Origin: Deltaproteobacteria bacterium
GTDB taxonomy: Bacteria > Lernaellota > Lernaellaia > JACKCT01
Direction: 5' to 3'
DNA length: 45,132 nucleotides
NCBI GenBank assembly: GCA_020845895.1
Contig: JADLEX010000058.1
Span: 1-45,132, forward strand
Shown here: one piece after another, positions 127 to 44,497 of the stretch
Layout of the letters: each line of letters opens with the position of its first letter
Numbering within the stretch: the stretch's first letter is position 1
Notes under the pieces: generated by a model
What the model was told of the DNA's origin: nothing
The model's database searches: none
What the model saw: only the letters and a program-made list of their open reading frames with translations
Position numbers and translations under genes: made by a program

Positions 127-993
127 ATGACGACCTATTCCCGCTGGGCAGCGCTTTTTCTTTTTACGTGTCTCGTGTCCGGTCCCTTCCTGGGCGGTTG
201 CGGCGGCGGGGATGACGACGATTCGCCTTCATCGGACTTCGGCGAACCCGGTGATGACGACGCGCGGGACGATGACGTGGCCGATGACGATTCCACGGAC
301 GACGACGCGCTGGACGACGACACGACCGATGACGATTACGCGGACGACGACTCGCTCGACGACGACACGGCCGATGACGATACCGAGGATGACGATGCGG
401 CCGACGACGATACGGGCCCTTGCGAACCCCGGCTTCATGCCTATGACGGATTTGAAGACTACCCCGTGGGCCTTTGGCGCGACCACGGCGACTGGCTGCT
501 GGTGAGCGAGCAGGTCGAGGTGGAAAAGATCCGCCGCTTCGACTCGTCCCGGGGGTTGAAGGCGCTTCACGTCGGCGGGATGTGGCTCGCCGGGCTCGAA
601 GACTCGAAATACATCTGGCAGGAGTTGATCGGATACGACCTTCCCACCGACACCTGCGATGTCTTCTGGATCGAGATCGACGGAAAGTCGTGGATCACCC
701 CGGGCAACGGCGGCATCGCGGCATGCGTCGCGCCGCGGTTTGGCTACCCGGACAGCGACACGATCTGCGCCGGCACCGACATCCGTGCGTTTTGGACCAA
801 TTTCAAGCTGAAGATCGACAAGGTGAGCCGGACCGTGGACGTGTACGTGGACGACGAACTGCAGGGAACGACGGACATGGAGGCGGACTACCCCGTGTTC
901 ATGTTTCAGGGGGCGTCCGTCTGGGGCGGCTATTACGTCCCCCACATCGCCATGGACGAGTTTTCCATTTACGACGACGGCTACGAGCGCTGA
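127..993 (+). CDS. Lipoprotein with long Asp-rich linker and a C-terminal beta-sandwich-like domain
   Basis: The 288-aa protein begins with a lipoprotein signal: a hydrophobic segment at about residues 8-22 and a lipobox LGGC with the lipidated Cys near residue 25. Residues 29-95 are a linker of repeated DDD triplets separated by one or two other residues (ADDDSTDDDALDDDTTDDD and so on). The linker codons mix GAC and GAT, so it is not a simple DNA repeat. From about residue 97 a Cys-containing globular domain follows (YDGFEDYPVG, then KLKIDKVSRTVDVYVDDELQ). It resembles a concanavalin/LamG-type beta-sandwich with a short ligand-binding strand pattern, but I cannot assign a family. By inference it is anchored in the outer membrane with its domain held away from the surface by the acidic spacer. 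The ATG at 127 is chosen because the signal peptide starts there; the ribosome binding site is weak. Confidence 0.8.
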   Translation: MTTYSRWAALFLFTCLVSGPFLGGCGGGDDDDSPSSDFGEPGDDDARDDDVADDDSTDDDALDDDTTDDDYADDDSLDDDTADDDTEDDDAADDDTGPCEPRLHAYDGFEDYPVGLWRDHGDWLLVSEQVEVEKIRRFDSSRGLKALHVGGMWLAGLEDSKYIWQELIGYDLPTDTCDVFWIEIDGKSWITPGNGGIAACVAPRFGYPDSDTICAGTDIRAFWTNFKLKIDKVSRTVDVYVDDELQGTTDMEADYPVFMFQGASVWGGYYVPHIAMDEFSIYDDGYER

Positions 994-8213: not shown

Positions 8214-11200
8214 TGTCGATGCTGCCGATGAAGTCCTTGATGGCGGTTCTGCCGATCGGGCAAAGGAACAAGGGTCCTCGAATGATGCGCACGCACACGC
8301 TGACACCGCGGCTTTCCCGGAACGCTCAGAATCGCCGTCGGGTCGCCGGTCACGCCGGCTTCTCGATGGTCGAACTGCTCGTCGCGATCACGCTGACGGC
8401 GATTCTCGTCGCGGTGATCTACGCGCTGTTCGTATCATACGAGCGCGCGGTCATGACCGAGGAAGGCCGGATCGAAATCGCCCAGGGTTCGCGCGCCACG
8501 CTGTCGCGGCTCAAATCCGACATGGAACTCGTGGGTTCGAACGTCATGTTCGAAAAAGGCCAACCCGGCATGATCTACGCCGGGCCGTGGGAGATGATGT
8601 TCAACGGCGACGTGAGCGACACGCAGTTCGAGCTCACGAACGGCTCGACGTTGACGTATCCGTTCTCCGGCGGCGGCAAAACCTACACGGGCAAGTTCTA
8701 CGACTCGCCGGCCGAGACCGTCCACTACTACATGTCGACGGGAACCTCCACCGCGTCGTCCGACATGGACTACTCCTCGCATACCGGGGATCGCGTCCTC
8801 GTCCGTCGTTTCAACGGCAATCCCAACAGCGAGGTCGCGGTCGGTTACGGCATGCTGCAGGACATCGACGGCAGCTCTCAGTATGCGTATCCCGACGGCG
8901 CGCGCGTCACACCGCTGTTTTCGTTCTGGGGCGATTTCGATTTCGACCCCGAGACGCCGCCCACTCTGTGGGGCGACTCGGACGGCAACGGTGCGCTGAG
9001 CGACGGTGAGATGCAGGCGCTCTATCAGGGGTCCTACTCGCACTCCTATGCGGGTCCATTCGGCTCGGTCAGCATCTCCGGCCTGGCACGCGGTGCGATG
9101 TATCTCAACAACGTGGCGGGCAGTCCATCCAACACGGAGGACGCGGACGGAGACGGCCAGCTCGACTACGGCGAGGATGTGAATCGCAACGGACGTCTCG
9201 ACGTCAACTTGCTCGACTCGGCGATCACGCGCATCGATCTGAACGTGACGATGGTCGCGCAAAGGCAGGACAAGCAGGGCGCGGCCTTCATCCACAATTC
9301 TCCGTACAAGGAACACACGGTCCGCACGTCGGTCGATCCCCGCAACCTCGGCAAGCCGGTTGAGCGCGACTGCGCGGGCAACCCAGATCCGCCGACGGAC
9401 GCGGTGGCCGCCGAGGAGGATTGCGGACGTGGCGTGTATGTGAGCTGGAACCAGTCGTCCGACGACGGCCTGAACGACAACGACGTGCTCTGGTACGAGA
9501 TCTACCGTTCCACCAATGGCGGCACGCCGGCGTTCCACACCGTCGTGGCGGCGAATGGCGGCACCAACACCGCGGCGTGCGGCGGCAAGGATTACTGCTT
9601 CGTCGACGCGAACATCGAGCCCGGTGACACCTACATCTATTCGATCTACGCGGTGGACTGCGGCGATAACCACTCGACTGCCGTGACCACCGGTTCGACG
9701 ACGCCCTCGCAGGAGCCCGTTCTGGAGCCGACAGATCTGACGGTCTGGGATTCCGGCTGTTACAAGAGTGCGCAGGACTTCGGCTCGATCACGCTTCGCT
9801 GGCACCGCTCGACGGGTTCCGGCGTGACTGAGTACTGGGTTTATCGATCCAACGGAAACGTCACGGACGAGATGATGTCGGTACCCATCGCCAAGATTTC
9901 GACCAGTCACGCGCAGCTCAACACGACCTGCTCGGCGGGAGCGACGTCGTACATCATGGCGGAATACCAGTGCCGCAACGCCAAGTACTATCGGTACAAC
10001 GATTACTACGTCTGGCGCGACGAGCTCGACTCGCCGGGACGCAACGCGTCCTTGCCGCCCATCGATGGCGCGCAATTCGGCATCAAGACCGGCGGCTATA
10101 ATCCGTCCTTCGACGAAAACAACATGATGCGTTACCAGTACGAAGTACGGGCCTACAACTCCAGCACCGAGTGCCTCTCCGATCCGCTCGATTACTTGAG
10201 CAACTGCGCTTACAACGAGGCCCAGTCCCTCAACTCCGAGGCGTCGAGCGACACGCCGAGTCGGTTCTCGCCCCCGTGGAATATCGAGATTCGCGACACG
10301 TCGCTCTACGACGGTTCCGACGTCGAGCCGGCGCTAACCGTTTCGTGGGACGCCTCGCCGAGCCAGTTTTGCGAAATCAGCGGCGCGGATGGGGATATTC
10401 CCGATCTGACGCGTTACTACGTCTACCGTTCCACAACCTATCTGGACTACGTGGTCGGAACCTGCCGTCTCCGCCACGCCTTGTTGAAAGAGGACGGCAG
10501 CGGCGTGATCGATGGGGGATTCCAGTTCTATTCCGCGGCGGGAATTCCCGCGAACGCCGTGGTGTTCAAGGGCGCGGCGGTCACGGCCGCGACGACGCTG
10601 AGCTACAGTTTCAAAGACCAGCAGTCGGCGCTTCAATCGGGGAATGCCTGGTACCTGAATATCGGCACCGAGGATCTCAAACCGGATACCGGGACGACGG
10701 TGGATTCGACCAACCACACGCTCAAGGTCATCGACCCGACGGTCGGCTATTGCTCGCCGTCCGAGTCGGTCTATGAGTACACGGTCGCCGCGGTCGCCAC
10801 GAACGAAGGCGGAAACGGCGTTCCCCACCCGACGGATTGGTCCTTCGGTGCGGCATGCACCGAAAACGGCGTCTTCGACTGCGACTGCCCGGCGGTCATT
10901 CTGCCGCCATCCACTACCGAGTACTGCAACCTGCACGGCCCCATCACGGTCAACTGGACGTGGGATCAAGCACCGCCGTCGACTTCGACCATCAGACTGC
11001 TCGCCAAAGACGCGTTGAATCCGAATGCCGACTACTTCGTCGTCGACACCACGGTCTCCTGTACAGGCTCGAACTGTCTCGGCGACCACCAATACTCCGA
11101 CCAGATCCCCGGCGTGACGTATGAGTACGCCGCCGAGGTGACGTGCCCTCTGCCCGAGGATTGCACGCGCATCGTCGACCTGAACCAGACCGAGGACGCA

Positions 11201-16594: not shown

Positions 16595-18058
16595 ATGCGT
16601 GGACCCCATCTGAATCGGATGACGCCGGCCTCGTGGATCGCCGCGATCCTGCTGGCCGCGTTTCTGTGCCCGGCCGTCGCCTCGGCGCAGGAAGAGGGCT
16701 ACGTCCCGCTTTCGGGCGAGTTTGCCGAGAAGCAGTACTTCGGCAAGAAGATCACGATGGACTATCAGGACGCCGAGATCAAAAGCGTTCTGCGCGTGAT
16801 CTCCGAGGTGTCGGGGATGAACATCGTGACCGGCGATGACGTCGTCGGCAAGGTCACGATCAAGCTGCAGAACGTGCCGTGGGACCAGGCGCTCGACGTC
16901 ATCCTGCAGACCAAGAAGCTCGGCATGATCCAGGAAGGCAACATCATCCGGGTCGCGCCGCAGCAAACCCTGCAGGCCGAGAGCACGCAGAAGCTTGCCT
17001 CCGAGCAGTCCAAGCTCATGCTCGAGGAACTGCTGCTCGAGATGGTGCCGGTTTCCTACGCCAACGCCGACGACCTCGTGAACCCGCTGCGCACCGTGCT
17101 CTCCTCGCGCGGCTTCGTCGCCGTCGACAAGCGCACAAACGTCATCGTCATCAAGGACATCAAGCAGAATCTCGAACAGGCGAAAAAGCTGATCGTCAAC
17201 CTCGACACGCAGACGCCGCAGGTCATGATTCAGGCGCGCATCGTCGAGGCGAACACCGACTTCACCCGCGAGCTGGGCGTCAAGTGGGGCGGTTACTACG
17301 TCGCCGACGCGGCCCACGGCAACTCCACGGGCATGACCTTCCCCAACAGCGTGCGCGTCACGGGCGCGAACGCGCTGGGCGAGTCCACGCAAAACACGAC
17401 GACCGCGACGGTCGGCTCCTCGCGGGCCGGCTCGGCGATTTCGACCCTCAACAACGCGAACTACGTCGTGAACCTGCCGGCGCCCATCGGCCTCGGCGCG
17501 GGCGGCGGCGTGGGCATCACGATGGGCTCCATCAACGACGTCGTGGCCCTCGACCTGCAACTCTCGGCGATGGAAAACCGCGGTGAAGGTCGGGTCATCA
17601 GCCAGCCCAAGATCGTGACCCTCGACAACAAGAAGGCCAACATCACGTCGGGCGTGAGCATTCCGTTCCAGATCCGTCAGCAGGGCGAAACATCACTGTC
17701 GTTCATCGAGGCGAACCTCAACCTGATCGTCACGCCGCACGTCACCAACGACAAGAGCATCGTGATGGTCATCGAGATCGCGAAGAACGCGCCGAACACG
17801 TCGATCCCGACGTCCACGGGCGATCCGGCCATCGACAAAAAGGAAGCCAAGACCGAGACCCTCGTGCGCAACGGCGAGACCACCGTCATCGGCGGTATCT
17901 TCTCGTCCGAGGAAAGCCGCACCGAGCTGTCGGTTCCCTGGCTGTCCAAGATTCCGGTGCTCGGCTTCTTCTTCCGCGACCGCAAGCAGACGAACAAGCG
18001 GTCCGAGCTGTTGATCTTCATCACGCCGCGCATTGTCCAGGACAAGCCGGTCGTGTGA
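16595..18058 (+). CDS. pilQ: Type IV pilus secretin PilQ (short form)
   Basis: PilQ forms the outer-membrane channel for the pilus. The 487-aa precursor has a signal peptide (cleavage near ASA/QE, about residue 30). An N0/STN-type domain (ITMDYQDAEIKSVLRVISEV, then VPWDQALDVILQTKKLGM) is followed by an N1 domain (YANADDLVNPLRTVLSSRG). The secretin core runs from RIVEANTDFTRELGVKWGG to the signature NGETTVIGGIF, then VPWLSKIPVLGFFFR and ELLIFITPRIV. It lacks the N-terminal AMIN domains that make most PilQ proteins 600-900 aa, so peptidoglycan binding must come from elsewhere or be absent. A strong AGGAGGG site lies 7 bases before the ATG. Confidence 0.95.
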   Translation: MRGPHLNRMTPASWIAAILLAAFLCPAVASAQEEGYVPLSGEFAEKQYFGKKITMDYQDAEIKSVLRVISEVSGMNIVTGDDVVGKVTIKLQNVPWDQALDVILQTKKLGMIQEGNIIRVAPQQTLQAESTQKLASEQSKLMLEELLLEMVPVSYANADDLVNPLRTVLSSRGFVAVDKRTNVIVIKDIKQNLEQAKKLIVNLDTQTPQVMIQARIVEANTDFTRELGVKWGGYYVADAAHGNSTGMTFPNSVRVTGANALGESTQNTTTATVGSSRAGSAISTLNNANYVVNLPAPIGLGAGGGVGITMGSINDVVALDLQLSAMENRGEGRVISQPKIVTLDNKKANITSGVSIPFQIRQQGETSLSFIEANLNLIVTPHVTNDKSIVMVIEIAKNAPNTSIPTSTGDPAIDKKEAKTETLVRNGETTVIGGIFSSEESRTELSVPWLSKIPVLGFFFRDRKQTNKRSELLIFITPRIVQDKPVV

Positions 18059-18107: not shown

Positions 18108-19223
18108 GTGAGATCTTTGACATGGAAAGGCGCTCCCCAACCGCACCTCGCTTGGTTTGACGCCGGGCCGCTGGAGCGGGCGCGAGATCATCTCGCGCGG
18201 GAGATTCGCCGGGAAGCCGCGGGCGGACGGGTCGTGATCGTCACGAGCCGAAACGTCCACCGGCTGTACCGCGAACGCTTTTTCGTTCCGCTCGCCCGGG
18301 CGCTCGACGCGCCCGAACCGGTTCGCCTGCCGGACGGCGAGGATCGAAAGGGCGTCGCCGAGTGGACTTCGATCTTTGAAAATCTGCTGGCCAATCGAAT
18401 CGATCGTCGCGACGTGATCGTCGCGGTGGGCGGCGGCGTCCTCACCGACGTTGCGGGCTTCGCCGCGGCGACCTTCAAGCGCGGCCTCGCGTGGATCAGC
18501 GTGCCCACCACCCTCACGGGGCAGGTGGACGCCGCGATCGGCGGGAAGACCGCGGTGGATTTCGGCGCGGCGAAGAACATGATCGGGGCGTTCTGGCAAC
18601 CGCGCGCGGTGGCGCTGATTCCGGCGTTTCTCGAAACGTTGCCGGATCGGGAGATCCGCTGCGGGCTCGCCGAGGTCGTCAAGACGGGCTTGGGGCTCGA
18701 TGCGCGGTTCTTCCGCTGGATCGAGCGGCACGTCGACGATCTGCGAAATCGCGATCAAACCGCGCTCTCCCGCGTGGTGCGCGTGTGCGCAGCCGCGAAG
18801 CTGCGGGTCGTCGCCGACGATCCTCTGGATCAGGGCGGACGCGCCGTCCTGAATCTGGGTCACACCGTCGGGCACGCGGCCGAGGCCGCCGGAAATTTCC
18901 GGCGCTGGAACCACGGTGAGTGCGTGGCGACGGGGATGGTGGTGATGGCAAGGCTCGCCGAGCGACGGGGTTATTTGACCGTCGCGGCGCGAACGCGTTT
19001 GGAACGCTTGATCGACGAACTCGACCTGCTGCCGCGGCGTTTGCCGAAACCGGAAGAGGTCGAATCGTTCCTTATGCTCGACAAGAAGAAGATTGGCCGG
19101 CGGATTGTCGCCGTGATCCCGGGTCCGATCGGAGAATTCCGATTGGAACCGCTGGATCCGAGGGAGTTGGTGGAAGCTCGATACTGGTCCGGGTTCCGCA
19201 AGACCGGGAGGAAGGTCTCATGA
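18108..19223 (+). CDS. aroB: 3-dehydroquinate synthase
   Basis: AroB converts DAHP to 3-dehydroquinate, the second step of the shikimate pathway, using NAD+ and a divalent metal. The 371-aa length fits the family. Visible motifs are LPDGEDRKG, the NAD-binding VAVGGGVLTDVAGFAAATFKRG, the PTTLTGQVDAAIGGKTAVD loop, KNMIGAFWQP, and metal ligands in CGLAEVVKTG and LNLGHTVGHAAE. The start is GTG at 18108; TTG 18117 is an alternative. An aroB gene directly after pilQ is a familiar arrangement in proteobacteria, though here aroK is missing between them. Its stop overlaps the next ATG by four bases. Confidence 0.95.
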   Translation: MRSLTWKGAPQPHLAWFDAGPLERARDHLAREIRREAAGGRVVIVTSRNVHRLYRERFFVPLARALDAPEPVRLPDGEDRKGVAEWTSIFENLLANRIDRRDVIVAVGGGVLTDVAGFAAATFKRGLAWISVPTTLTGQVDAAIGGKTAVDFGAAKNMIGAFWQPRAVALIPAFLETLPDREIRCGLAEVVKTGLGLDARFFRWIERHVDDLRNRDQTALSRVVRVCAAAKLRVVADDPLDQGGRAVLNLGHTVGHAAEAAGNFRRWNHGECVATGMVVMARLAERRGYLTVAARTRLERLIDELDLLPRRLPKPEEVESFLMLDKKKIGRRIVAVIPGPIGEFRLEPLDPRELVEARYWSGFRKTGRKVS

Positions 19224-20011
19224 GAAAGTGGTTCATTTTGGTCGCGTTCGCCATGGTTCTCGGTTCGCTCGCGATCGTGGCTTCGTGCGGCGAGACCGAT
19301 CCGGCCCAAGCCCCGGCGGGTGCGGGGATCGAGTTTGTCGCTGAGACGGGCGATGGCGAGGCGGTGGTCTTCACGTTGGATTATGGGACTCACGAGATCT
19401 GTGGTATCGAAATCCCAGACTCCTGCCAGGAAGCGTTTTACGCCAGAATGGAGCAATACTGCGTCGAGCCACACATGCAAAGATATCCAGACAAGACGCA
19501 GGCCGTGGCTGAAGCAGAATGCAAAGATCGAACGGTGTGGTGCGATTATACGCTCACGCCGATCAGCGAAGGCAGTTCCGAAACGTTGGGCGCTTTGGCT
19601 GCGATTTTCGAGGAAGGGGAGTGCGGGTACTACGAGCAGATCCTCGTCGCGATCGTGAGTCGTTCGTCCGGTTCTTCGGCGAGTACAGACGTCGTCGCTG
19701 GAGTGCCGCTCAACGGCGTCGAAGTGCGTTGGGTGACACAGGGTCCGCTCTTCGAACTCTATGAGTTGTCGGATGTCCCGGGCGAAATCCCGCCACTCGC
19801 CAATCCCTATATGGATGAGACTGATGACCGGGGAATTACGGAACTGAAGGTCCGCTTCCCGCTTCCGATCGCGGCCGGTTCTCAGATCGATCGAATCGTG
19901 ACGGTCGACATCGGCGTGGATGTGGCGTCTTACAAGTTTACGGTGACGACCGAAGAGGGCGACACCAGTACGGGCGACGACGACGACGCGACCGACGACG
20001 ACGCGGGTTGA
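19220..20011 (+). CDS. Lipoprotein with C-terminal Asp-rich tail
   Basis: A 263-aa lipoprotein of unknown function. The signal MRKWFILVAFAMVLGSLAIV ends in lipobox VASC (Cys near residue 23). The mature part has many Cys (about residues 70-140: CGIEIPDSC, YCVEPHM, AECKDRTVWCDY, GECGYY), suggesting disulfides. It ends in a short acidic tail GDDDDATDDDAG without the GCGC ending seen further on. GGGAGGAAGG lies 7 bases upstream of the ATG, which overlaps the aroB stop (ATGA). I do not recognise the family. The link to aroB is positional only. Confidence 0.82.
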   Translation: MRKWFILVAFAMVLGSLAIVASCGETDPAQAPAGAGIEFVAETGDGEAVVFTLDYGTHEICGIEIPDSCQEAFYARMEQYCVEPHMQRYPDKTQAVAEAECKDRTVWCDYTLTPISEGSSETLGALAAIFEEGECGYYEQILVAIVSRSSGSSASTDVVAGVPLNGVEVRWVTQGPLFELYELSDVPGEIPPLANPYMDETDDRGITELKVRFPLPIAAGSQIDRIVTVDIGVDVASYKFTVTTEEGDTSTGDDDDATDDDAG

Positions 20012-34802: not shown

Positions 34803-36902
34803 GTGAGAGGACAGTCCAAAAAACAAACCGCACTCTGGGTTTTCGCGGCGACCCTGGTCGTCGCAGGGCTTTCGTGGGCGGGCGAACTCGAACCGCCGCT
34901 CGGCATGATCGCCCGCAGGCTCGTTCCCGATGCGATGATGCGCATTCCGCAGCTCATCCCCGCGTTTGAACAAAAAGACGGCTCGTGGATGGTCCCGGTC
35001 ATGATCCGCACGAGCGGCGATGCCGACCTGCTCGAAGACGAACTGCGCGAAGCCGGCGTTGCCGTCGGGCGCGCGGTCGGACCGGTCGTGACGGCGACCG
35101 TCGATTCGCGGTTGCTGGAGGATGTCTCCGCGCGGCCGGACGTCGCCATGGTCGAACTCGCGTGGCCGGTGCGCCCTCTGCTCGACATCTCCGCGCCGCT
35201 GATCGAGGCCGACCGCGTGTGGGAGGAGTTCGCCCTGCGCGGCGAGGGCGCGGTGGTGGGCGTGGTCGATACCGGTACGGCGTGGAATCACCCCGACTTC
35301 TACGATCCCGACAACGGCGAGAGCCGCATCGAATGGCTGTGGGATCAATCGCTGCGTCCCGAGGGCGACGAAAACGGCCCCGCCGATTACCCCTACGGCA
35401 TCGAGTACACGCGCGACGAACTCACGACGGCGTTCGCGACCGGCGATCCCGATGCCCTGCGTACGTCGGACGACGTGGGCCACGGCACGCACGTGCTGGG
35501 CACGGCGGGCGGCAACGGCGCGGCAACGGGCAACGGGTATCCCGCCGGGCGATACGTGGGCATCGCGCCGGCGGCGCATCTGGTCGCCGTCAAGGCGAAC
35601 CTCATCGCGAGTTTCGTGCTCGACGGCGTCGCCTATGTGTTCGAGCGCGCGGAAGAACTCGGTTTGCCCGCGGTCGTGAATCTTTCGCTGGGAACGCACC
35701 TCGGCGCGCACGACGGCACGAGCGGCCTCGATCAGGGCGTGGCGGCAATGGCCGGGCCGGGGCGCATCATCGTGGCCGGCGCGGGCAACGAGCAGCACAT
35801 GGGCTATCACGCGCGCGTGACGCTCGCCGAGGGCGAGACGACGACCGTGACATTTCTCGTCGGCGCGCACGACGCACACGACCTCATTCCCGACATCCTC
35901 GCCATCGCGGCCTACCCGCCGCAGGATTCCGATTACACGTTCAAGGTCACGAGCCCGGGCGGCGAGGAACTGGAGTCGGGGCCGCACCAGCCGGGATCGG
36001 CGATCACGCCGGACGGCATCTGGCTGCTCGACAACGCATTTTTGTTTCGCGGCAACGACCTGAACGGGCTCGCGACGACGCTGATCGCCCTCGTCGGCAA
36101 TCCGCTGACGGCGGGCGAAACACGCAACCTGCTCGCACCGGGCGAGTGGACGATCGAGATCACCGCGAACGACATCGACGGAACCGAGACGATCGATCTG
36201 TGGATCATGGCGTCACTGATGAACGGACAGCAGCAGTGCTGCACGACATTCGACGAGGGACTCGACGAGGGATTCATGGTCGCGTCGCCCGCCAGCTCGG
36301 ACGGCGCGATCGCCGTGGGCGCGTACTACTCGCGATTCACGTGGACGAATGAGAGCGGCGACGAGACGGGCTACGGCGTGGACTACACGCTCGGCGACCT
36401 GGCGTTTTTCAGCAACCACGGTCCTCGCCCCGACGGCGTGCGGAAACCCGAGATCGTCGCGCCGGGGTTCGGCATCGCGGCGGCGGTGTCGCACGGGAGC
36501 GAGATCGCGGGCGCGTACGCGGGACAGATCGTCGAGGACGGCGAACACATCGTGCTGCAGGGCACGAGCATGGCGTCGCCGCATGTGGCGGGCGCGACGG
36601 CGCTGCTTCTCTCCGAGCATCCCGACGCGACGCCGGACGACATCCGCGCGTGGTTGGCCGCGGGCGCGATCACGGACGAGTTTACGGGCGAGGTCCCGAA
36701 CGACGCCTGGGGATTCGGAAAGCTCGACATTTATCGGTCGCTCTTGGCGTCGAATGAATCCGACGACGACGATGACGATTTCGATGACGATGACGACGCC
36801 GACGACGATACGGATGACGATGCGGATGATGACGTCTTGGATGACGACCCTTCGACAGGCTCAGGGCCGGGCGACGACGACGATGACGGATGCGGGTGCT
36901 GA
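34803..36902 (+). CDS. Secreted subtilisin-like (S8) protease with Asp-rich tail ending in GCGC
   Basis: The 699-aa serine protease starts at GTG 34803 (GGGAG about 8 bases upstream). It has a signal peptide (ALWVFAATLVVAGLSWAG, cleavage near residue 27) and a propeptide-like region (about 30-120). The catalytic triad is D156 (VVGVVDTGTAWNHPDF), H227 (GHGTHVLGTAGG) and S589 (GTSMASPHVAGA). An insert of about 200 residues lies between the oxyanion region (VVAGAGNEQ) and the Ser block and looks like a beta-sandwich. From about residue 655 the protein becomes almost pure Asp (DDDDDDFDDDDDADDDTDDD) and ends DDDDDGCGC. The deiminase encoded 27 bases downstream and the GH84 enzyme have the same terminal tag. 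A dispersed repeat interrupts the tail (DPSTGSGPG). It should be exported; anchoring through the Cys pair is inferred. Confidence 0.93.
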   Translation: MRGQSKKQTALWVFAATLVVAGLSWAGELEPPLGMIARRLVPDAMMRIPQLIPAFEQKDGSWMVPVMIRTSGDADLLEDELREAGVAVGRAVGPVVTATVDSRLLEDVSARPDVAMVELAWPVRPLLDISAPLIEADRVWEEFALRGEGAVVGVVDTGTAWNHPDFYDPDNGESRIEWLWDQSLRPEGDENGPADYPYGIEYTRDELTTAFATGDPDALRTSDDVGHGTHVLGTAGGNGAATGNGYPAGRYVGIAPAAHLVAVKANLIASFVLDGVAYVFERAEELGLPAVVNLSLGTHLGAHDGTSGLDQGVAAMAGPGRIIVAGAGNEQHMGYHARVTLAEGETTTVTFLVGAHDAHDLIPDILAIAAYPPQDSDYTFKVTSPGGEELESGPHQPGSAITPDGIWLLDNAFLFRGNDLNGLATTLIALVGNPLTAGETRNLLAPGEWTIEITANDIDGTETIDLWIMASLMNGQQQCCTTFDEGLDEGFMVASPASSDGAIAVGAYYSRFTWTNESGDETGYGVDYTLGDLAFFSNHGPRPDGVRKPEIVAPGFGIAAAVSHGSEIAGAYAGQIVEDGEHIVLQGTSMASPHVAGATALLLSEHPDATPDDIRAWLAAGAITDEFTGEVPNDAWGFGKLDIYRSLLASNESDDDDDDFDDDDDADDDTDDDADDDVLDDDPSTGSGPGDDDDDGCGC
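36848..36871. repeat. Dispersed repeat (CCTTCGACAGGCTCAGGG type) inside the Asp-rich tail
   Basis: The sequence CCCTTCGACAGGCTCAGGGC plus a few bases encodes DPSTGSGPG in the middle of the subtilase acidic tail. On the minus strand it reads as PEPVEG, the well-known spurious peptide of a repeat scattered through many environmental genomes. The insertion keeps the frame, so the tag after it (DDDDDGCGC) is still made. Confidence 0.65.
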
Positions 36903-36929
36903 ATCAGACTCGAAATGAAGGATTGTGAC

Positions 36930-38405
36930 ATGCGAATTCGATGGATCGCGGCTGCTCTGATGCTCATGATCGTCTCGCCCGCATTTTCCGCGCATGCGGA
37001 CTTCGCCGAGCTTCGCGCGCTCGCGCTCACCGCGCATCTGCCGCAGATGCTGCGTCTGACGTGGAACAAGGATCGGTACGTGGACGACATGGACCAGTCC
37101 GGACAGCTCGCGCGGCTGGGAATCACGCGCGAACAGGCGGGCGAGTTGTGGGACATCCTCGCAGCGCGCGTCGGCGTGGTGCCGCCCTTCAAGCTCCGTC
37201 GGAGCGGCGGCAAAGCCGCGCCGGTCGGCCCGATCCGCTACGCCGCGGAGTTCGAACCGCAGACCGAGCTATGGATGCGCTGGCCCGTCGGACAAGGCGG
37301 AATTCTGCCCACCTATGACGGCATGATCGGCGCGGTCGGGGACGAAATGACGGTGCGCGTGATCGTTGCCTGCGCATCGCAGGAAAACACCGCGCGAACG
37401 CACCTCGCGAATGAGGGCATCGACGACGCGAACGTGGTGTTTTCGTATTGGCCGACGGACACGATCTGGACGCGCGACTACGGCCCGGTCTTCGTCGGAC
37501 TCGGCGAAACGGCGCCGCAAACCGAGGCGATCATCGACATGAGCTATTCGCGCCCGTGGCGCACCAATGACGACCAGATTCCGGACGCGGCCGGTGTGCT
37601 CACGGGCGCATCGGTGTACGAAACGGATTTTGTGGAAGACGGCGGAAACCTGCTCACGGACGGGCAAGGCACGTGCTTCGCCACGTCGTACATGTTCGAC
37701 AACAATCCGGGCTGGACACTGGACGAGATGGAACAGTGGTTCGCCGACTATCTCGGCTGCGCGCAGCTCATCATGCCCGAGCCACTCGTGAGCGAGGGCA
37801 CCGGTCACATCGACATGTTCATCAAGGTGATCGGGCCGCACACGGTGATGGTGGGCGAGGCCGAGGCGGGCGACATCAACCAACAGCGGCTTGACGACGC
37901 GGCGGACCTGATCGCGGGCGCGACGGCGCTCGACGGCACACCCTTTGAGGTCGTGCGTATCCCGCAGGTGACGGACACGACGTTCCCACTTTATCCCACG
38001 TTTTACACCTACACGAACGGCCTGCTTGCGGGCGAAACCGCGATGGTCCCCCTCTACAACCGCGCCGAGGACGACGACGCGCTCGCGGTGTACGAGACGG
38101 CGTTTCCCGATCGCGATGCGGTGCAGGTGGATGCCGAGGAAGTCATTCAGTCCGGCGGCGCGCTGCACTGCGTGACGATGGAGCGGCAGGACTACACTGT
38201 CGAATCGGACGATGACGATGACGCCGACGACGATGCCGCGGACGACGACGCCGACGATGACATGAGCGACGACGATTCGGGGGATGACGACACAGGCGAT
38301 GACGACTTGTCGGACGACGACGCGGACGATGACGGCGACGATAGCGGCGACGATGACGTCGCGGCGGATTCCGGCGATGACGACGACGACGGGTGCGGTT
38401 GCTGA
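36930..38405 (+). CDS. Secreted agmatine/peptidylarginine deiminase-like enzyme with Asp-rich tail ending in GCGC
   Basis: The protein has 491 aa. The signal peptide is MRIRWIAAALMLMIVSPAFS with cleavage after HA. The PAD_porph-type guanidino-group hydrolase domain shows AAEFEPQTELWMRWP, TIWTRDYGPVF, VEDGGNLLTDGQ, GTGHIDMFIKV (H293) and the nucleophile C414 in GGALHCVTM. Family members convert agmatine to N-carbamoylputrescine or, when secreted, citrullinate protein arginines. The last 75 residues are Asp-dominated with Ala, Ser and Gly spacers and end DDDDDGCGC. ATG 36930 has GAAGGA 7 bases upstream, preferred over ATG 36915. It is 27 bases after the subtilase and likely cotranscribed. By inference a protease and a deiminase act together on extracellular proteins or peptides. 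Confidence 0.9.
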   Translation: MRIRWIAAALMLMIVSPAFSAHADFAELRALALTAHLPQMLRLTWNKDRYVDDMDQSGQLARLGITREQAGELWDILAARVGVVPPFKLRRSGGKAAPVGPIRYAAEFEPQTELWMRWPVGQGGILPTYDGMIGAVGDEMTVRVIVACASQENTARTHLANEGIDDANVVFSYWPTDTIWTRDYGPVFVGLGETAPQTEAIIDMSYSRPWRTNDDQIPDAAGVLTGASVYETDFVEDGGNLLTDGQGTCFATSYMFDNNPGWTLDEMEQWFADYLGCAQLIMPEPLVSEGTGHIDMFIKVIGPHTVMVGEAEAGDINQQRLDDAADLIAGATALDGTPFEVVRIPQVTDTTFPLYPTFYTYTNGLLAGETAMVPLYNRAEDDDALAVYETAFPDRDAVQVDAEEVIQSGGALHCVTMERQDYTVESDDDDDADDDAADDDADDDMSDDDSGDDDTGDDDLSDDDADDDGDDSGDDDVAADSGDDDDDGCGC

Positions 38406-38418
38406 GAAGCCGGGGCGC

Positions 38419-39453
38419 TCAGTGAGCGTCTGACGTCGGTTCCGCCGGAGTCCCGGATTCCGCGGCGGGCGCTGTCATCGGCGAGTTCGGGTCCGGCGCG
38501 GGACCGCCCGGGGCGATCGCGGGCGCGAGCGGATTTTCGAACATCAGGTCCTCGCCCTCGTCGGTGAGACCGGGGACGGGTTCCTCGAGCGCGACGAGAA
38601 TCGACACGCGGCGATTGCGCGGGTCGAGCGGGTCCATGTCCGGAAGCGGACGGCGGTCGGCGAGCGCGCGCACCTCTCGGATGCGCTCTTCGGTCGCGCC
38701 GAGGCCCAGCATCAGACGGCGCAGCGCGTTGCCGCGATCGGCCGAGAGCTCCCAGTTGGTATATCCCGCGCCCGCCGAGTAGGGCTTCGCGTCGGTGTGG
38801 CCCTCGACGACGACGGGTTGCGACGTCTTGACGATCTCGGGCATCACTTCGCGCAGCACCTTGCGAAGGGCGGGTTTGGGGTTCGCCTTGCCGGAGTCGA
38901 AAAACGTGCCGCCCTGCTGCTCGCGCAGCTCGATGCGCAAGCCCTCGTCGGTCATGCGCACGCTGATCGCCTTCGACACCTCGGCGAGCTTCGGGTTTGC
39001 CTTGATCGCCTCGGCGATTTTTTCGCCCGCGTCGCGCAACTTCTTCGCCGCCGCGCCGTTGCCCTCGCCGCCGGGACCGCCGCCGGATTTCTGCTTCGGG
39101 TCGCCGGGCTTCGGTGTCGCCTCGTTCGTCAGCGCCTCGGCGAAACGCTCGCCCGAGCCTTCACCTTTCGATCCGACGCCGACGTTCGGCATCTTGTCCA
39201 TGATGCCGACCCCCATGTTGTCGAGCGTGCCCTTGCTGGGCTGCACCACGGGCACACCGCGAGGATCGGTGAAATACGCGGCAACGGAATTCTTGACTTC
39301 GGGTCCCTGCGACAGGATCCAAAGGACCATGAACAGCGCCATCATGGCCGTGACAAAGTCGGCGTAGGCGACCTTCCACGCACCGCCGTGGTGGCCGCCG
39401 TGGCGCTTGATGATCTTCTTCGGTCGAAGCTTGAGTTCACCGTCGTCGGCCAT
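38419..39453 (-). CDS. motB: Flagellar/gliding stator protein MotB
   Basis: MotB anchors the MotA/MotB proton channel to peptidoglycan. The 344-aa protein has one membrane helix with the proton-carrying D32 (YADFVTAMMALFMVLWILSQ), a plug/linker region (about 55-145, Gly/Lys-rich) and an OmpA-like peptidoglycan domain (VVVEGHTDAKPYS, NWELSADRGNALRRLM, DPRNRRVSI). A Pro-rich tail of about 60 residues (LAPAIAPGGPAPDPN) extends beyond the usual end. It follows motA with a 3-base gap on the minus strand. Its 3' end lies 13 bases from the convergent deiminase gene. Confidence 0.95.
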   Translation of the reverse strand: MADDGELKLRPKKIIKRHGGHHGGAWKVAYADFVTAMMALFMVLWILSQGPEVKNSVAAYFTDPRGVPVVQPSKGTLDNMGVGIMDKMPNVGVGSKGEGSGERFAEALTNEATPKPGDPKQKSGGGPGGEGNGAAAKKLRDAGEKIAEAIKANPKLAEVSKAISVRMTDEGLRIELREQQGGTFFDSGKANPKPALRKVLREVMPEIVKTSQPVVVEGHTDAKPYSAGAGYTNWELSADRGNALRRLMLGLGATEERIREVRALADRRPLPDMDPLDPRNRRVSILVALEEPVPGLTDEGEDLMFENPLAPAIAPGGPAPDPNSPMTAPAAESGTPAEPTSDAH

Positions 39454-39456
39454 GGC

Positions 39457-40302
39457 TTACTTGCCCTTCCCGCCCTTCAGGAACTCTTCCATCGCGTTGA
39501 ACGACGGACGGTCGTGCGTGGGGATGTCGTGCCGGGCGCTCTCGCAGGTCATGAGCGGGTTGCCGCCGCGGGCGATGCCCACCACACCGGCCTTGGCGAC
39601 GCGCAGCAGTTGCAGCGCGTGATGGCGTTCGTGCTTGATCGCGCTCGCCAGAGGGCTGACGAATCCGTACGCGAGCAACACGCCCAGAAAGGTTCCGACC
39701 AGCGCCGCCGCGACGTGCTTTCCCACCGACGCCGAGTCGCCGCCGATCGAGTTCATCGTGATGATGATGCCGAGCACCGCCGCGACGATACCCAGGCCGG
39801 GCAGCGCGTCGGCGACCGTCGCGACCACGGCGCCGGGCTCCTCGGCCTCGTGCTCGCGAATCTCGAACTCGGCCTCGAGCATCTCCATCATGTCCTCGAT
39901 GGGCGTGCCCAGCAGGACGAGGCGCAGCGAGTCGACCAGAAAATTCATCAGGTCCTCGTGATGGGCGAGGCGGCCGAGAATCTCGCTTTTCGTGGGATTT
40001 TCGACGTGCTTTTCCATCGCGAGCAGGCCCTCGGCGCGCACGAGCGAAGCGAGGTCGAAGATAACCTTGAGCACGTCGAGGAAGGTCTGCGCGTGGGACG
40101 TGGACTTGATCGCGGCCTTGAGCGACGCCCCGATGACTTTGAGCGTTCGCGTGGGGGTTCCGATCACCAGACCGCCCAGCGCGGCGCCGACAATGATGAC
40201 GAATTCGGCGGGCTGGAACAACACGCCCATGGAGCCGTGGGCCATCATGTATCCGCCGATGACGCACGCGATCACAATGCCGATTCCGACGAAAATCGTC
40301 AC
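39457..40302 (-). CDS. motA: Flagellar/gliding stator protein MotA
   Basis: MotA forms the ring of the stator ion channel and drives the rotor. The 281-aa length is normal. Four membrane helices are visible (about 3-22, 33-50, 170-190 and 202-225). The cytoplasmic loop has the charged rotor-contact region (DLASLVRAEGLLAMEKHVEN). ADALPGLGIVAAVLGIIITM holds the conserved Pro of the channel; VGTFLGVLLAYGFVSPLA follows. The start is GTG 40302 with AGAGGTGG upstream. No other flagellar gene is nearby, so the pair could serve a flagellum or another rotary motor. Confidence 0.95.
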   Translation of the reverse strand: MTIFVGIGIVIACVIGGYMMAHGSMGVLFQPAEFVIIVGAALGGLVIGTPTRTLKVIGASLKAAIKSTSHAQTFLDVLKVIFDLASLVRAEGLLAMEKHVENPTKSEILGRLAHHEDLMNFLVDSLRLVLLGTPIEDMMEMLEAEFEIREHEAEEPGAVVATVADALPGLGIVAAVLGIIITMNSIGGDSASVGKHVAAALVGTFLGVLLAYGFVSPLASAIKHERHHALQLLRVAKAGVVGIARGGNPLMTCESARHDIPTHDRPSFNAMEEFLKGGKGK

Positions 40303-40432
40303 ACGTCCACCTCTTTAGCGGCTACGCCCATGTCCTTATCGGCGAAATGGGCAGAAGCCTTGAATGCGGCCCGAGGCTTGAGGCTTGGGGCGCCCGCCTT
40401 TCCAACGACCAAAAACCAAGAACCATCAACCC

Positions 40433-41911
40433 CTATTGCTTGAACGGATACTTCGTGAACGACACCCATCCGATCGTCATGACGCCCGCGGCCAGCACCG
40501 GCGCGGCGATGATGCCCCAGGGCCGATCGGCGGTCGCGCCGAGCCAGAGATTGAGCATGGGAACGATGGCGTACGCGAGCGCCGACGCGGGTTTGGAGAT
40601 CAGGCCCTCCATGCCGTTGTACATGGCCTCGCGGCGATAGCCGGTCAGGCGCGCGTCCTCGTCAATGACGTCGGAGAGCAGCGGCCGCTGGAGAACGAAA
40701 ATGACGCTGACCGGGAACGCGCACAGCGCGAGCGTGACGACGGCGTGCGCGAAACTGATCCACGACGGCGACATCGGCTTGCCGATCGCCGACGCAATCA
40801 GGTTGACGAACCAGCCGAAAAACGGCGCGTGGCGCACCATCGCGAACATCAGCATCGCGACGGTGAACCAGATCATGCCGAGCAGATAGATGCCCTTTTT
40901 TCCGCGATTCTCCGCGAGTTTCGACACCAGCGGGAACAGGAAACCGGCGCCCAGCACGATGACGCCCTGCAGGATGCCCGCGAGACCCTCGGACAAGCCC
41001 ATGATGACGACGACCATGAAGGGCATCGACGCGAGCAGAATGTCCACGGTCATGCGGATCGCCGCGGAGCAGATGACGTACGGTTTGAAGCTGCTGTTTT
41101 TGAAGGTCTCGCGGATGCTCTCGGCGAAGTGGAAATCGACGACGACGCGGCTTTCCTTTTTCGTCTCGCGCACCAGCGTAATCGCCGCGTAGAACGACGC
41201 CGCGAAGATGAAGCCGATGATGATTCCCGAGACCTGGAACCCGTTGGCCAGGCGGATCGGCCCGATGCCGAGGCCCTCGCTGAAGGCGCTGATCATGAGA
41301 CCAAGGCCAAGGCTCCCGATCACGGTGCCGGCGACGTCGCTGTACGCCATGAACTCGGAGACGACGATGCGCTCCTTCACCGACGGCGTGATCTCGGGCA
41401 GCAGCGCGAGATACGGGATGACGACGCCGGTGTAGAGGAACCAGAACGCGGTGTGCGAAGCGAGCAGCCACAGGCAGTTGGCGTTGAAATCCATGCCCGC
41501 GAGGCGGAACCACACCTCGCCCATGCCGTCGGGATTCGGTGGGAACCAGATGCCGATCGAAAAGAACGCGAGCAGCGGCGTGCCGATGACGATCCATGGA
41601 ATGCGCCGTCCCCAGCGCGTCACCCATTTGTCCGACAGGTGCCCGACGATGGGTTCGGCGAGGGCTTCGAGGAAGCGCGGCAGAAATCCGCCCAGCGACA
41701 TCGCCGCCGCGGACACGAGCATGATGGGCGCCGAGCCCTCGCCCGCGCTCGGGCGACCCGTGTAATAGTAGATCAGCCACGACGAAATCAGCGCCGGCGA
41801 GAGCGAGACGGACATCTGGCCGAGCGAATACGTCAGTTTTTGGGAAAAGTTCAGGTAGGACCGGTCCTCATCGCGTTCGGGCGTTTCGCCCGGGGCGGCG
41901 GCGTGATCCAT
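40433..41911 (-). CDS. Sugar:cation symporter of the GPH/MFS_2 family
   Basis: The 492-aa protein has about twelve membrane helices. It begins with LNFSQKLTYSLGQMSVSLS and shows the loop 2-3 motif ALAEPIVGHLSDKWVTRWGRR (DxxxTRxGRR type), characteristic of glycoside-pentoside-hexuronide symporters (MelB-like). The second half has RPLLSDVIDEDARLTGYRRE, the matching motif before helix 11. It should move a sugar or related solute with H+ or Na+. The ATG at 41911 follows AGAAGG. It is encoded downstream of the GH84 gene on the same strand, 75 bases away, so it may import a product of extracellular glycan cleavage. Confidence 0.9.
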   Translation of the reverse strand: MDHAAAPGETPERDEDRSYLNFSQKLTYSLGQMSVSLSPALISSWLIYYYTGRPSAGEGSAPIMLVSAAAMSLGGFLPRFLEALAEPIVGHLSDKWVTRWGRRIPWIVIGTPLLAFFSIGIWFPPNPDGMGEVWFRLAGMDFNANCLWLLASHTAFWFLYTGVVIPYLALLPEITPSVKERIVVSEFMAYSDVAGTVIGSLGLGLMISAFSEGLGIGPIRLANGFQVSGIIIGFIFAASFYAAITLVRETKKESRVVVDFHFAESIRETFKNSSFKPYVICSAAIRMTVDILLASMPFMVVVIMGLSEGLAGILQGVIVLGAGFLFPLVSKLAENRGKKGIYLLGMIWFTVAMLMFAMVRHAPFFGWFVNLIASAIGKPMSPSWISFAHAVVTLALCAFPVSVIFVLQRPLLSDVIDEDARLTGYRREAMYNGMEGLISKPASALAYAIVPMLNLWLGATADRPWGIIAAPVLAAGVMTIGWVSFTKYPFKQ

Positions 41912-41986
41912 GGAAACCTTCTGGTAAGGGCACGAGCGGTTCGAGGTTTCTTAGCACGCGCGCCGGGCGCGGACAATCGGCCCGAC

Positions 41987-44497
41987 CTAGCAGCCGCAGC
42001 CGCCGGTTTCTCCCTCGTCAAAGTCCGATTCCGCACCATCGTCGGTCGGCGGGTCGTCGTCTTCGGGATGCCCGGAATCGTCGTCGTCGCCCTCCCCGTC
42101 CGAATCGACCGGAGTGCGCGCAAAGAATCCCGACGCGGTCCAACCCCACCCGGAATCGGTCTCGCCCACCAGAACCATCGAATAGAATCCGGGATGCGGC
42201 GGCGTCCAGGTGAGCACGCGGCCGACGATCGTCGCTCCGGGTAGGCCGAACACGGTCCACTCCACGCCGGCGGGAAGCTCCACGGTGTGTTCGCGCCCGG
42301 ACGAAAGGCGATCGAAGAGGGCACCCGGCAAGGGCGGCGCGTGGAATTCGATGTCGGGAATTTCGGCGGAGACGAGTTTTTGCCGGATCGTCCAGGCCAC
42401 CAGGAAACTCGTCTGATAGCGGTCGTGCAGAACGGCCTTTTTGAGCAACGCGTCCGCGAGGTCGAGTTCGGTCCCATCGGGTTCGCCCGCGAGTACCGAC
42501 GCATACCAGTTCATCAGGTGCAACAGGCCGTAGCCCTCGTGCGTGGCGCGGTCGGCGGGAATCCACACGTCGTCGACCAAAGCCTCTTCGAGACCGCTGT
42601 GGTGAAGGTCGTTTTTCAGCGTCGCCATGCGTGCGGCCTCGCGCGCGACGCTCGCCCCCGCGGCCCGGATCTCGGGGCCCGAGCCGGTCTTCGCCGCCAG
42701 GTGGATCGCATCGGCCACGGCGTTGAGACGCAGGTTGCGCGGAAAATCGATGCCGCCGAAGCCCGCGTCGTTGTTGCCATAGAACGTGTTCTGCACATCG
42801 ACGAGCAGACGCTGATCGAATTCGTCCGACGCTTCAAACCGTGCCGCGCGCTCGATCATCCGCGTGTGGTCGTACCCCTGCGGATCTTCGAGATACGCAC
42901 CGTATCCCGTCATCACGAGGCGCTCGGCCGCGCCGAGGAACATCGCATTCGCTCCAAAGCCCGCGATCGAATCGCGCAAGTCCGGCGCGCGCATCTGCAT
43001 CGGCGCGAGCGTCAGACGCCCCATGAAGGCATCCCCGCCGTCGATGGCGAACTGATTGTCCCAGAATCCCGGTGCGCGCCCGACGAGGGCCGCGGGCCAC
43101 TCGAAGTACGACCCGTCGAGCAACTGGCCGTTCGTCGGCGCGCCCCAGCACAGCACCACGTCGGGATCGGTCGCGCCCATCGCCGTCCAGTAAGCCTCGC
43201 CGCCGGGCCATTCGTCCATGTGCTCGGGCCGCTTGGCGAGCGGGTTCACCCACATCGCGATCGCCTCGCCGTACTCCGCCTCCAGCGTCTGTTTGACGAA
43301 GTTCACAAGATCGGCGTGCGCCGCGCCCAGCGCACCGTTCACCGGCACGCCGATGTCGTTTTCGATATCGTCGAACATCAGCATGAAATGGCGGAACCCG
43401 CCGTCGGCGAAATCGCGCAGCTTGCCCAGCAGCAACTCGCGCTCGGCGGCGTCATAGAGCGCCATGTCCTTGCCCGGCGCGATCGCGTAATACACATCGA
43501 CGCCGAGCCGCGCGCCCAGATCGCGCAGTTCAAAAAACGCGCGCATTTCGGCGCTCGTGTACGGCTCGCGCCAGGCATCCCGATGCTTCTCGTCGTCCTT
43601 GGGCGCATGCATGTAAGCGCCGAGACCGAGGCGTGCGAGATGAATCAGCATCGCGCGACGCTCCGCGTGCGACCAGGGTGTGCCGTAGAATCCCTCGATC
43701 ACGCCGCCCGTCCCGAACGTCGCGGCAATTCGCCCCGGCACGGGCACGAATCGCGGCTCGCCGCGTTGTCCGTCTTCGGCGATCGGCACGAGAACGGCCA
43801 GTGCGTTTTCATCCGGCTTCGGCCCTTCCCAGGCGTCGCGGCGAAACGTGCGTTCGATGAGCGTATTCTCGGTGAGCGGCGTGCCCGCTTCGTCCACGTA
43901 GTGAACTTCGACGTGCGAGGTCAGCGTGTTCAGATCGTGGCGGATCAGCACGCCCTGTCGCTCGATCTCCTCGACGACTCCGACGGCGAGCGCCGGCTTT
44001 TCGTTCACCGCGGCCGCGTAAATGTGCAGTTCCGTCAGCTCCGCGGGACCGGCGTCCTCAAACCGCACCGTCAGGCAGTACGCGCGTTCTTCGGTCGAGA
44101 ACTCGAGCGGCTTGGAAAAGTCGTTCCACGGAATTTTCTCCACCGACGGTCCGCCGCACCATCGATCGAGACGCACCACCGCGGCCTTTGCGGGCGCGGT
44201 CGCCCATTCCCCGTAGATGCGGGCGATGCGAGGCGCGGTCGCCATGCGCGGGGCGAAATCGAACTGGAGCCACGACTCGCCGACGAGCGGCGTCTTCCAA
44301 CCGGTGCGCGCGACACCGTCGCGCACGGTGTACGGCGCGTCGTCGGTCTCGCGCTCCCAGAGATGCAGGAATTTGGGATAGGTGCCCGACGCGGTCACCC
44401 GCGCATGGGGAGCGAGGTCGAACCCCTGCGCCGACGCGAGACCGGGAATCAGGCACGCGAAAACCGCGACAATCGAGAACGCAAACCGCGAATACAT
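41987..44497 (-). CDS. Secreted GH84 beta-N-acetylglucosaminidase with acidic tail ending in GCGC
   Basis: The 836-aa enzyme has a signal peptide (MYSRFAFSIVAVFACLIPGL, cleavage after ASA). An N-terminal F5/8-like beta-sandwich (about 25-150) precedes a GH20b-like linker domain (about 155-265). The GH84 barrel is marked by GVIEGFYGTPWSHAERRAML and APKDDEKHRDAWREPY and by the catalytic Asp pair D376/D377 in LMFDDIEND. A helical region and a short Ig-like domain (about 750-805) follow. The last 30 residues are acidic (GEGDDDDSGHPEDDDPPTDD) and end GGCGC, as in the subtilase and deiminase. ATG 44497 is preferred over the upstream TTG at 44515. GH84 enzymes remove GlcNAc from glycoproteins or hyaluronan-like glycans by substrate-assisted catalysis. 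Confidence 0.92.
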   Translation of the reverse strand: MYSRFAFSIVAVFACLIPGLASAQGFDLAPHARVTASGTYPKFLHLWERETDDAPYTVRDGVARTGWKTPLVGESWLQFDFAPRMATAPRIARIYGEWATAPAKAAVVRLDRWCGGPSVEKIPWNDFSKPLEFSTEERAYCLTVRFEDAGPAELTELHIYAAAVNEKPALAVGVVEEIERQGVLIRHDLNTLTSHVEVHYVDEAGTPLTENTLIERTFRRDAWEGPKPDENALAVLVPIAEDGQRGEPRFVPVPGRIAATFGTGGVIEGFYGTPWSHAERRAMLIHLARLGLGAYMHAPKDDEKHRDAWREPYTSAEMRAFFELRDLGARLGVDVYYAIAPGKDMALYDAAERELLLGKLRDFADGGFRHFMLMFDDIENDIGVPVNGALGAAHADLVNFVKQTLEAEYGEAIAMWVNPLAKRPEHMDEWPGGEAYWTAMGATDPDVVLCWGAPTNGQLLDGSYFEWPAALVGRAPGFWDNQFAIDGGDAFMGRLTLAPMQMRAPDLRDSIAGFGANAMFLGAAERLVMTGYGAYLEDPQGYDHTRMIERAARFEASDEFDQRLLVDVQNTFYGNNDAGFGGIDFPRNLRLNAVADAIHLAAKTGSGPEIRAAGASVAREAARMATLKNDLHHSGLEEALVDDVWIPADRATHEGYGLLHLMNWYASVLAGEPDGTELDLADALLKKAVLHDRYQTSFLVAWTIRQKLVSAEIPDIEFHAPPLPGALFDRLSSGREHTVELPAGVEWTVFGLPGATIVGRVLTWTPPHPGFYSMVLVGETDSGWGWTASGFFARTPVDSDGEGDDDDSGHPEDDDPPTDDGAESDFDEGETGGCGC

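Follow-up and report, generated by a model that had tools for sequence, protein, structure and literature searches.

The window, meaning the whole stretch of 45,132 nucleotides that was analysed, encodes three predicted secreted enzymes that end in the same kind of C-terminal tag. Their positions are listed in the table below, together with those of two N-terminal lipoproteins from the same window. According to Pfam, the enzymes have three unrelated folds (PF00082, PF04371 and PF07555), and a Sec signal peptide without a lipobox was predicted for each of them. From the open reading frames, it was noted that the subtilase and the deiminase both finish in GDDDDDGCGC and the GH84 enzyme in GETGGCGC, with the stop codon directly after these residues. 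The three tails were read directly, and neither a hydrophobic helix nor a basic tail was found at any of these C-termini. The preliminary description of this DNA had reported different folds, N-terminal signal peptides, and an acidic tract with a terminal GCGC free of any helix or basic tail, and all of this was borne out. Position 36930 is the best start for the deiminase, while the start at 44497 was used for the GH84 gene; the open reading frame list gives 44515, a TTG that lies six codons further upstream.

Table. Tagged enzymes of the window, their C-terminal tags, and two N-terminal lipoproteins for comparison.
Feature	Position	Strand	Evidence
Subtilase (S8), tagged protein 1	34803..36902	+	PF00082 E=8.9e-36; Sec signal peptide MRGQSKKQTALWVFAATLVVAGLSWA
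Subtilase C-terminal tag, 46 aa, Asp-rich spacer and GCGC	36762..36899; GCGC codons 36888-36899	+	sequence
Porphyromonas-type peptidyl-arginine/agmatine deiminase family enzyme (PAD-type), tagged protein 2	36930..38405	+	PF04371 E=1e-50; signal peptide MRIRWIAAALMLMIVSPAFSAHA
Deiminase C-terminal tag, 65 aa, Asp-rich spacer and GCGC	38208..38402; GCGC 38391-38402	+	sequence
GH84 beta-N-acetylglucosaminidase, tagged protein 3	41987..44497	-	PF07555 E=1.8e-53; signal peptide MYSRFAFSIVAVFACLIPGLASAQ
GH84 C-terminal tag, 39 aa, Asp/Glu-rich spacer and GCGC	41990..42106; GCGC 41990-42001	-	sequence
N-terminal lipoprotein, mirror-image comparator	127..993	+	lipobox GG-C, then GGGDDDDSPSSDFGEPGDDDARDDD spacer; no C-terminal tag
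N-terminal lipoprotein, discriminating case	19220..20011	+	lipobox IVAS-C; Asp-rich C-terminus GDDDDATDDDAG without terminal Cys

The genome was scanned for GCGC ends with the codon pattern GGNTGYGGNTGYTRR (GCGC followed by a stop), which gave 45 matches in 4.98 Mb compared to 15 for the reversed control. A real stop was present in 41 of the 45 matches, and an in-frame Asp-rich tract, typically of DDDxDDDx repeats, preceded it in 40 of these 41. About 0.004 GCGC-ended proteins would be expected per genome from composition. The count against the reversed control and the near-constant in-frame Asp tract rule out chance or codon bias, and the scan for acidic GCGC ends raised by the preliminary description returned 40 cases and not only three. 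Just one GCGC end of the studied genome, G000, lacks an acidic tract (L008:1501; contig C34:13147-13161). It belongs to a 16-codon frame reading MNSAPAGSADGGCGC before the stop, and it may be a chance occurrence.

A sample of 673 kb, mostly round tag loci, yielded 486 predicted genes, 40 of which were tagged (Asp-rich with CxC). None of the 446 untagged genes in this sample ended in CxC and three ended in C, proportions that are not genome-wide frequencies because the sample is centred on tag loci; the whole-genome pattern count is unbiased. GCGC ends were not found to be equally common among cytoplasmic proteins. The anticipated co-occurrence with signal peptides was seen in 37 of the 40 tagged genes as called and in 39 after the start of two more was corrected to one downstream, while the last (L114:1487) is truncated at its N-terminus and was recognised by eye as related to the GH84 enzyme. 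Gene calls and signal-peptide calls were made with our own simple rule-based scripts, not with SignalP. The Pfam domains across the 40 tagged proteins are those of exported proteins of many unrelated folds, including subtilases, FG-GAP repeats, purple acid phosphatases, trypsins, GH84, phospholipase C, M14, C25, PAD, GH2, and PKD. Some apparent tags that came from a loose rule, L104 (ending DGCWYEI) and L162 (ending KRCVR) among them, were dropped as ordinary lipoproteins without an acidic end. It was also noted that some small tagged paralogues of genome G000 (L093:10457-11197, L107:2141-2878, and L108:8564-9286 and 9557-10231) carry an Asp-rich tract at both ends, one directly after the signal peptidase I cleavage site and one before GCGC.

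We then assessed the distribution of the tag. When an Asp triplet was included in the tag pattern, matches were found in 7/7 phylum genomes and in 2/283 genomes elsewhere. Since the two outside matches were single, one reading DDDMRKFIGCGC without an acidic tract and the other having no stop codon at its end, they were treated as chance, which leaves a convincing tag in 0/283 of the outside genomes. A scan for DDDDDGCGC-stop across 84,980 species recovered only one other organism, the metagenome-assembled genome Deltaproteobacteria bacterium FR_14 FR-FEN-1099-1, in which four stretches carry five tagged genes. The small uncultured phylum that bears the tag, with 64.2% G+C, a size of about 5 Mb, and seven genomes in this analysis, is probably Ca. 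Lernaellota/FEN-1099; Ca. Lernaellota, which equals FEN-1099 and Ca. Podoxiota, has 61.5-64.3% G+C and genomes of 2.65-5.25 Mb (PMC11382960).

The preliminary description had named GCGC as the motif. GCGC was found in 7/7 genomes, but the range of endings proved broader and in other families of the phylum also includes GCCG, CCAG, GCGK, GGCS, GGCAV, and GCGCN. The tails of genome G003 carry CCG, CCAG or CGCGL in place of GCGC, and with these ends present its classification as a genome without the tag was rejected. Genome G006 includes GCGK, GGCS, GGCAV, GCGCN, and GCTCS, and GCCG and GCGCSLF were further variants within the phylum. What stays constant is an acidic spacer and a Cys among the final few residues. 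These tails were compared across the phylum by sampled genes and not by deiminase orthologues, for which matches were found in 4/7 genomes and none in G003. We determined that this is one C-terminal tag, phylum-wide, on dozens of unrelated secreted proteins.

The tails GCGC, GCCG, CCAG, and GCGCSLF look like the eukaryotic CxC, CC, and CaaX prenylation boxes, a likeness that would suit a prenylated terminal Cys as in Rab or CaaX proteins. However, the alpha subunit of protein prenyltransferase (PF01239) was found in 0/7 genomes, a Rce1-like protease was not found in the studied genome, and we know of no prenyl donor outside the cytoplasm. Prenylation was rejected on the absence of PF01239, and we regard it as highly improbable.

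The N-terminal lipoproteins of the same genome appear as a mirror image of the tagged proteins. They start with lipobox-CGCGDDDDDD, CSCDDDDDD or CGDDDDD, and the CxC doublet was present in 11 of the 33 acidic N-terminal lipoproteins. The spacer composition is alike at both ends (D 0.48/0.49, A 0.09/0.09, T 0.05/0.05, G 0.12/0.10), and in genomes G005 and G006 an Asn-richer C-terminal spacer is matched by an Asn-richer N-terminal spacer. The comparator in the window is the lipoprotein near its left end, the start of which was picked by hand at an upstream ATG.

The two kinds of end were found to exclude each other almost completely. The seven genomes gave 98 proteins with Asp-rich C-termini. 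A Cys lies among the final five residues of 91 of them, and the seven others are all N-terminal lipoproteins, including the discriminating case of the window at 19220-20011. At most one of the 91 Cys-ended tails belongs to a credible lipoprotein with a lipobox and +1 Cys (Fisher exact test of terminal Cys against N-terminal lipid; p = 6e-10, or 1.2e-7 if every heuristic lipobox is counted, the lipobox of a few of the 98 proteins having been judged by eye). It was noted that one tagged protein of genome G001 (L212:4633-6672; ending SCGCGC), encoded just upstream of a class c Lgt gene, has a possible lipobox and is possibly anchored at both ends.

Homologous proteins also differ in the end that carries the Cys. 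In a family of unknown function with about 430 aligned residues, four members (L079, L105, L262, and L266) have a signal peptidase I site and the C-terminal tag, and two (L083 and L154) have a lipobox and Asp spacer without the tag; L079, L105, and L083 all come from one genome. The same exchange was seen in a beta-helix family (L248 versus L096, L118, and L112) and in a third family (L111 versus L221), and by these alignments the anchor has changed ends between homologues in at least three protein families. Together, the mirrored spacers, the near-exclusion of terminal Cys and N-terminal lipid, and the anchor swaps strongly suggest that the C-terminal tag functionally replaces N-terminal lipidation, a conclusion that concerns its role and not its chemistry.

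The sorting or anchoring role with an acidic spacer, as first proposed in the preliminary description, finds good support in the recurrence on exported proteins as well as in this near-exclusion and the swaps, and we consider anchoring through the terminal Cys to be likely, with good confidence. A soluble secretion or cation-binding tail without any covalent anchor was weighed against it, in which the Asp repeats would capture Ca2+ or mineral or direct the protein to a secretion system, with metal-binding or redox-active Cys residues. Strongly acidic tracts are chemically suited to cations, and the same tract is found at either end of proteins. However, the absence of an N-terminal lipid is tracked by the terminal Cys and not by the Asp tract, and the Asp tract after the lipobox Cys sits at the position of the surface-export signal of Bacteroidetes lipoproteins (PMC5080379), in keeping with a spacer or with a role at the surface; a tail of this kind appears quite unlikely.

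The conserved terminal Cys could also serve in disulfides or metal binding instead of carrying a lipid. An anchor that is not a lipid would hold the CxC pair in an intermolecular disulfide or a thioether to a surface partner or to other tagged proteins, with the acidic tract as spacer. This agrees with the pairing of the Cys in most tags and with the family variants, which hold at least one Cys in a varying context. It leaves unexplained, though, why N-terminally lipidated proteins lack the terminal Cys, why anchors have swapped, and why the N-terminal lipoproteins mirror the CxC and Asp spacer, and single-Cys tails also exist (GGCS and GGCAV). We consider an anchor of this type unlikely. Among the lipid, disulfide or surface partner originally suggested, the sequence evidence favours lipidation, and lipidation of the terminal Cys is reasonably probable.

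The reading that we prefer is that the tag forms a C-terminal, cleavage-free envelope anchor, the mirror image of a lipoprotein N-terminus, with the Cys lipidated on its thiol (rough probability 0.6). In this model, the protein would be exported by Sec and processed by signal peptidase I, after which the thiol of its last residues, a Cys or usually Cys-Gly-Cys, would receive a membrane lipid, most probably diacylglyceryl. An unstructured, Asp-rich spacer some 40 residues long would then tether the protein to the membrane at its C-terminus; with the Cys at the very end from the outset, cleavage by a sortase or protease would not be required. We infer such thiol lipidation, with a divergent Lgt clade (classes b and c) as the candidate enzyme, and a surface location; the folded anchored proteins would then probably cross to the cell surface, perhaps by a type II system. 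All seven genomes contain the type II secretin GspD, which scored above the curated cut-off in six of them. In Bacteroidetes lipoproteins, acidic residues beside the lipidated Cys are a surface-export signal (PMC5080379), and the acidic tract beside the Cys would by analogy fit surface display here. The window itself holds a secretin-like gene at 16618-18058 with a partial match to the GspD profile, after a run of PilM/N/O/P-like genes resembling a type IV pilus system.

The preliminary description had also asked for one candidate processing enzyme. Three Lgt genes (PF01790), all over the Pfam cut-off, were found in 7/7 phylum genomes, compared to one in most of 283 genomes elsewhere and three or more matches in about 6%. 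Class a and class b showed homology to 5AZB (E=1.9e-25 and E=4.6e-16, respectively). In the alignment, classes a, b, and c keep the equivalents of the E. coli residues Arg143, the catalytic Arg, and Arg239, and Asn146 is replaced by Cys. Class a, which adjoins LspA in most genomes read, presumably represents the standard enzyme. Beside class a in genome G000, we observed two adjacent LspA-like genes (L208:8739-9778); it is uncommon to find signal peptidase II encoded twice.

Classes b and c share one extra residue right after the Arg143 equivalent. The Lgt genes with this insertion form a supported clade (100/98), inside which b and c are separate, and they were found in 7/7 phylum genomes versus 3/283 outside (L268, L269, and L270 in genomes G026, G173, and G153). 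The insertion type is thus almost, though not strictly, confined to the phylum, and it is our candidate enzyme. Genome G003 is without class c and has instead a canonical-type Lgt (L218:7302-8156; LGNFFNSE) beside apparent Tat genes; its combination of missing class c and CCG-type tails is one observation only. By gene neighbourhood, no conserved partner gene of classes b and c was found across the phylum, and the adjacency of the class c gene L212 to a tagged gene is not convincing at the density of tags.

We tentatively propose a dedicated class b/c Lgt as the enzyme that modifies the tag, an assignment open to considerable doubt. With similar reserve, the phylum might make C-terminal lipoproteins in which this Lgt diacylglycerylates the C-terminal Cys-x-Cys directly, without helix, sortase or proteolysis. 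Known Lgt substrates are held in the membrane by their signal peptide. We know of no way for a soluble acidic tail to reach the Lgt active site, which is the main difficulty for the b/c assignment. The substrates of classes b and c may simply be N-terminal lipoproteins, and the co-distribution of these classes with the tag inside one phylum is a single evolutionary event.

If the terminal Cys is lipidated, this would be a kind of surface anchoring for which we found no description; in the literature searched, subscription journals mostly lying outside it, a C-terminal Cys anchor of this kind was not described. The design would need neither a membrane helix nor cleavage, and would broaden the class of bacterial lipoproteins to include the C-terminus as well as the N-terminus. 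Should the b/c Lgt reading be true, either end could serve to display the same enzyme families on the surface. The short terminal tag could also serve as a simple tool for C-terminal enzyme display.

Several known systems resemble parts of the tag. As in N-terminal lipoproteins of the Lgt-LspA pathway, a Cys stands beside a flexible acidic spacer, often as a CxC doublet, and homologous domains use either anchor. However, the tag lies at the opposite end, its proteins use signal peptidase I and not a lipobox with LspA, and the tagged Cys is never the N-terminus. The Bacteroidetes export signal (LES) likewise has acidic residues directly by the lipidated Cys (PMC5080379), although it comprises a few residues at the N-terminus whereas the acidic tract of the phylum covers about 40 residues and is C-terminal. 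GlyGly-CTERM/rhombosortase, PEP-CTERM/exosortase, and LPXTG/sortase are also recurrent C-terminal tags on unrelated exported proteins, but they have a helix, a basic tail, and a cleaving enzyme, and the phylum tag has none of these. The helix and basic tail were absent, and no sorting-signal model appeared among the NCBIfam matches listed.

The closest likeness is to MYXO-CTERM with its myxosortase (MrtX) in Myxococcota. Both tags occur on dozens of Sec-exported proteins per genome and place a conserved Cys at the C-terminus in a GCGC-like context, the Cys being invariant in MYXO-CTERM. Cys lipidation by an Lgt-like enzyme and surface location via a type II system have been proposed for MYXO-CTERM (PMC11980579), and we propose the same for the phylum tag. 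In contrast to MYXO-CTERM, the phylum tag has no transmembrane helix or Arg tail, the Cys lies at or near the very C-terminus after an Asp-rich spacer, and all 40 tails stop directly at GCGC. The design apart from helix-plus-Arg tags that the preliminary description had claimed therefore stood as far as the helix and Arg are concerned, but the tag is not unrelated to them, as the MYXO-CTERM motif has itself been characterised as a generic GCGC (PMC11980579).

A degenerate MYXO-CTERM, cleaved by a sorting protease of the myxosortase type (CPBP) or of another kind, would share this generic motif and proposed Cys lipidation (PMC11980579), and one to four matches to the MYXO-CTERM model (TIGR03901) were found in the six relatives, along with two to five copies of the CPBP protease (PF02517) in all six. 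The studied genome, with 99.5% completeness, gave 0 matches to TIGR03901 at E<=0.001 and 0 to PF02517. These two results and the missing C-terminal helix rule out MYXO-CTERM/myxosortase for the studied genome; with neither helix nor basic tail on the tags, nothing is left to cleave, and the degenerate form is very improbable. In MYXO-CTERM, Cys lipidation has been proposed with Lgt as the leading candidate enzyme (PMC11980579), and the present tag bears on the identity of that enzyme. Since the phylum pairs a stripped-down MYXO-CTERM-like substrate with an expanded and divergent Lgt set, the Lgt hypothesis becomes directly testable. The tag of the phylum looks like the processed end of a MYXO-CTERM-type protein, encoded directly, and an ancestral link between the two is possible.
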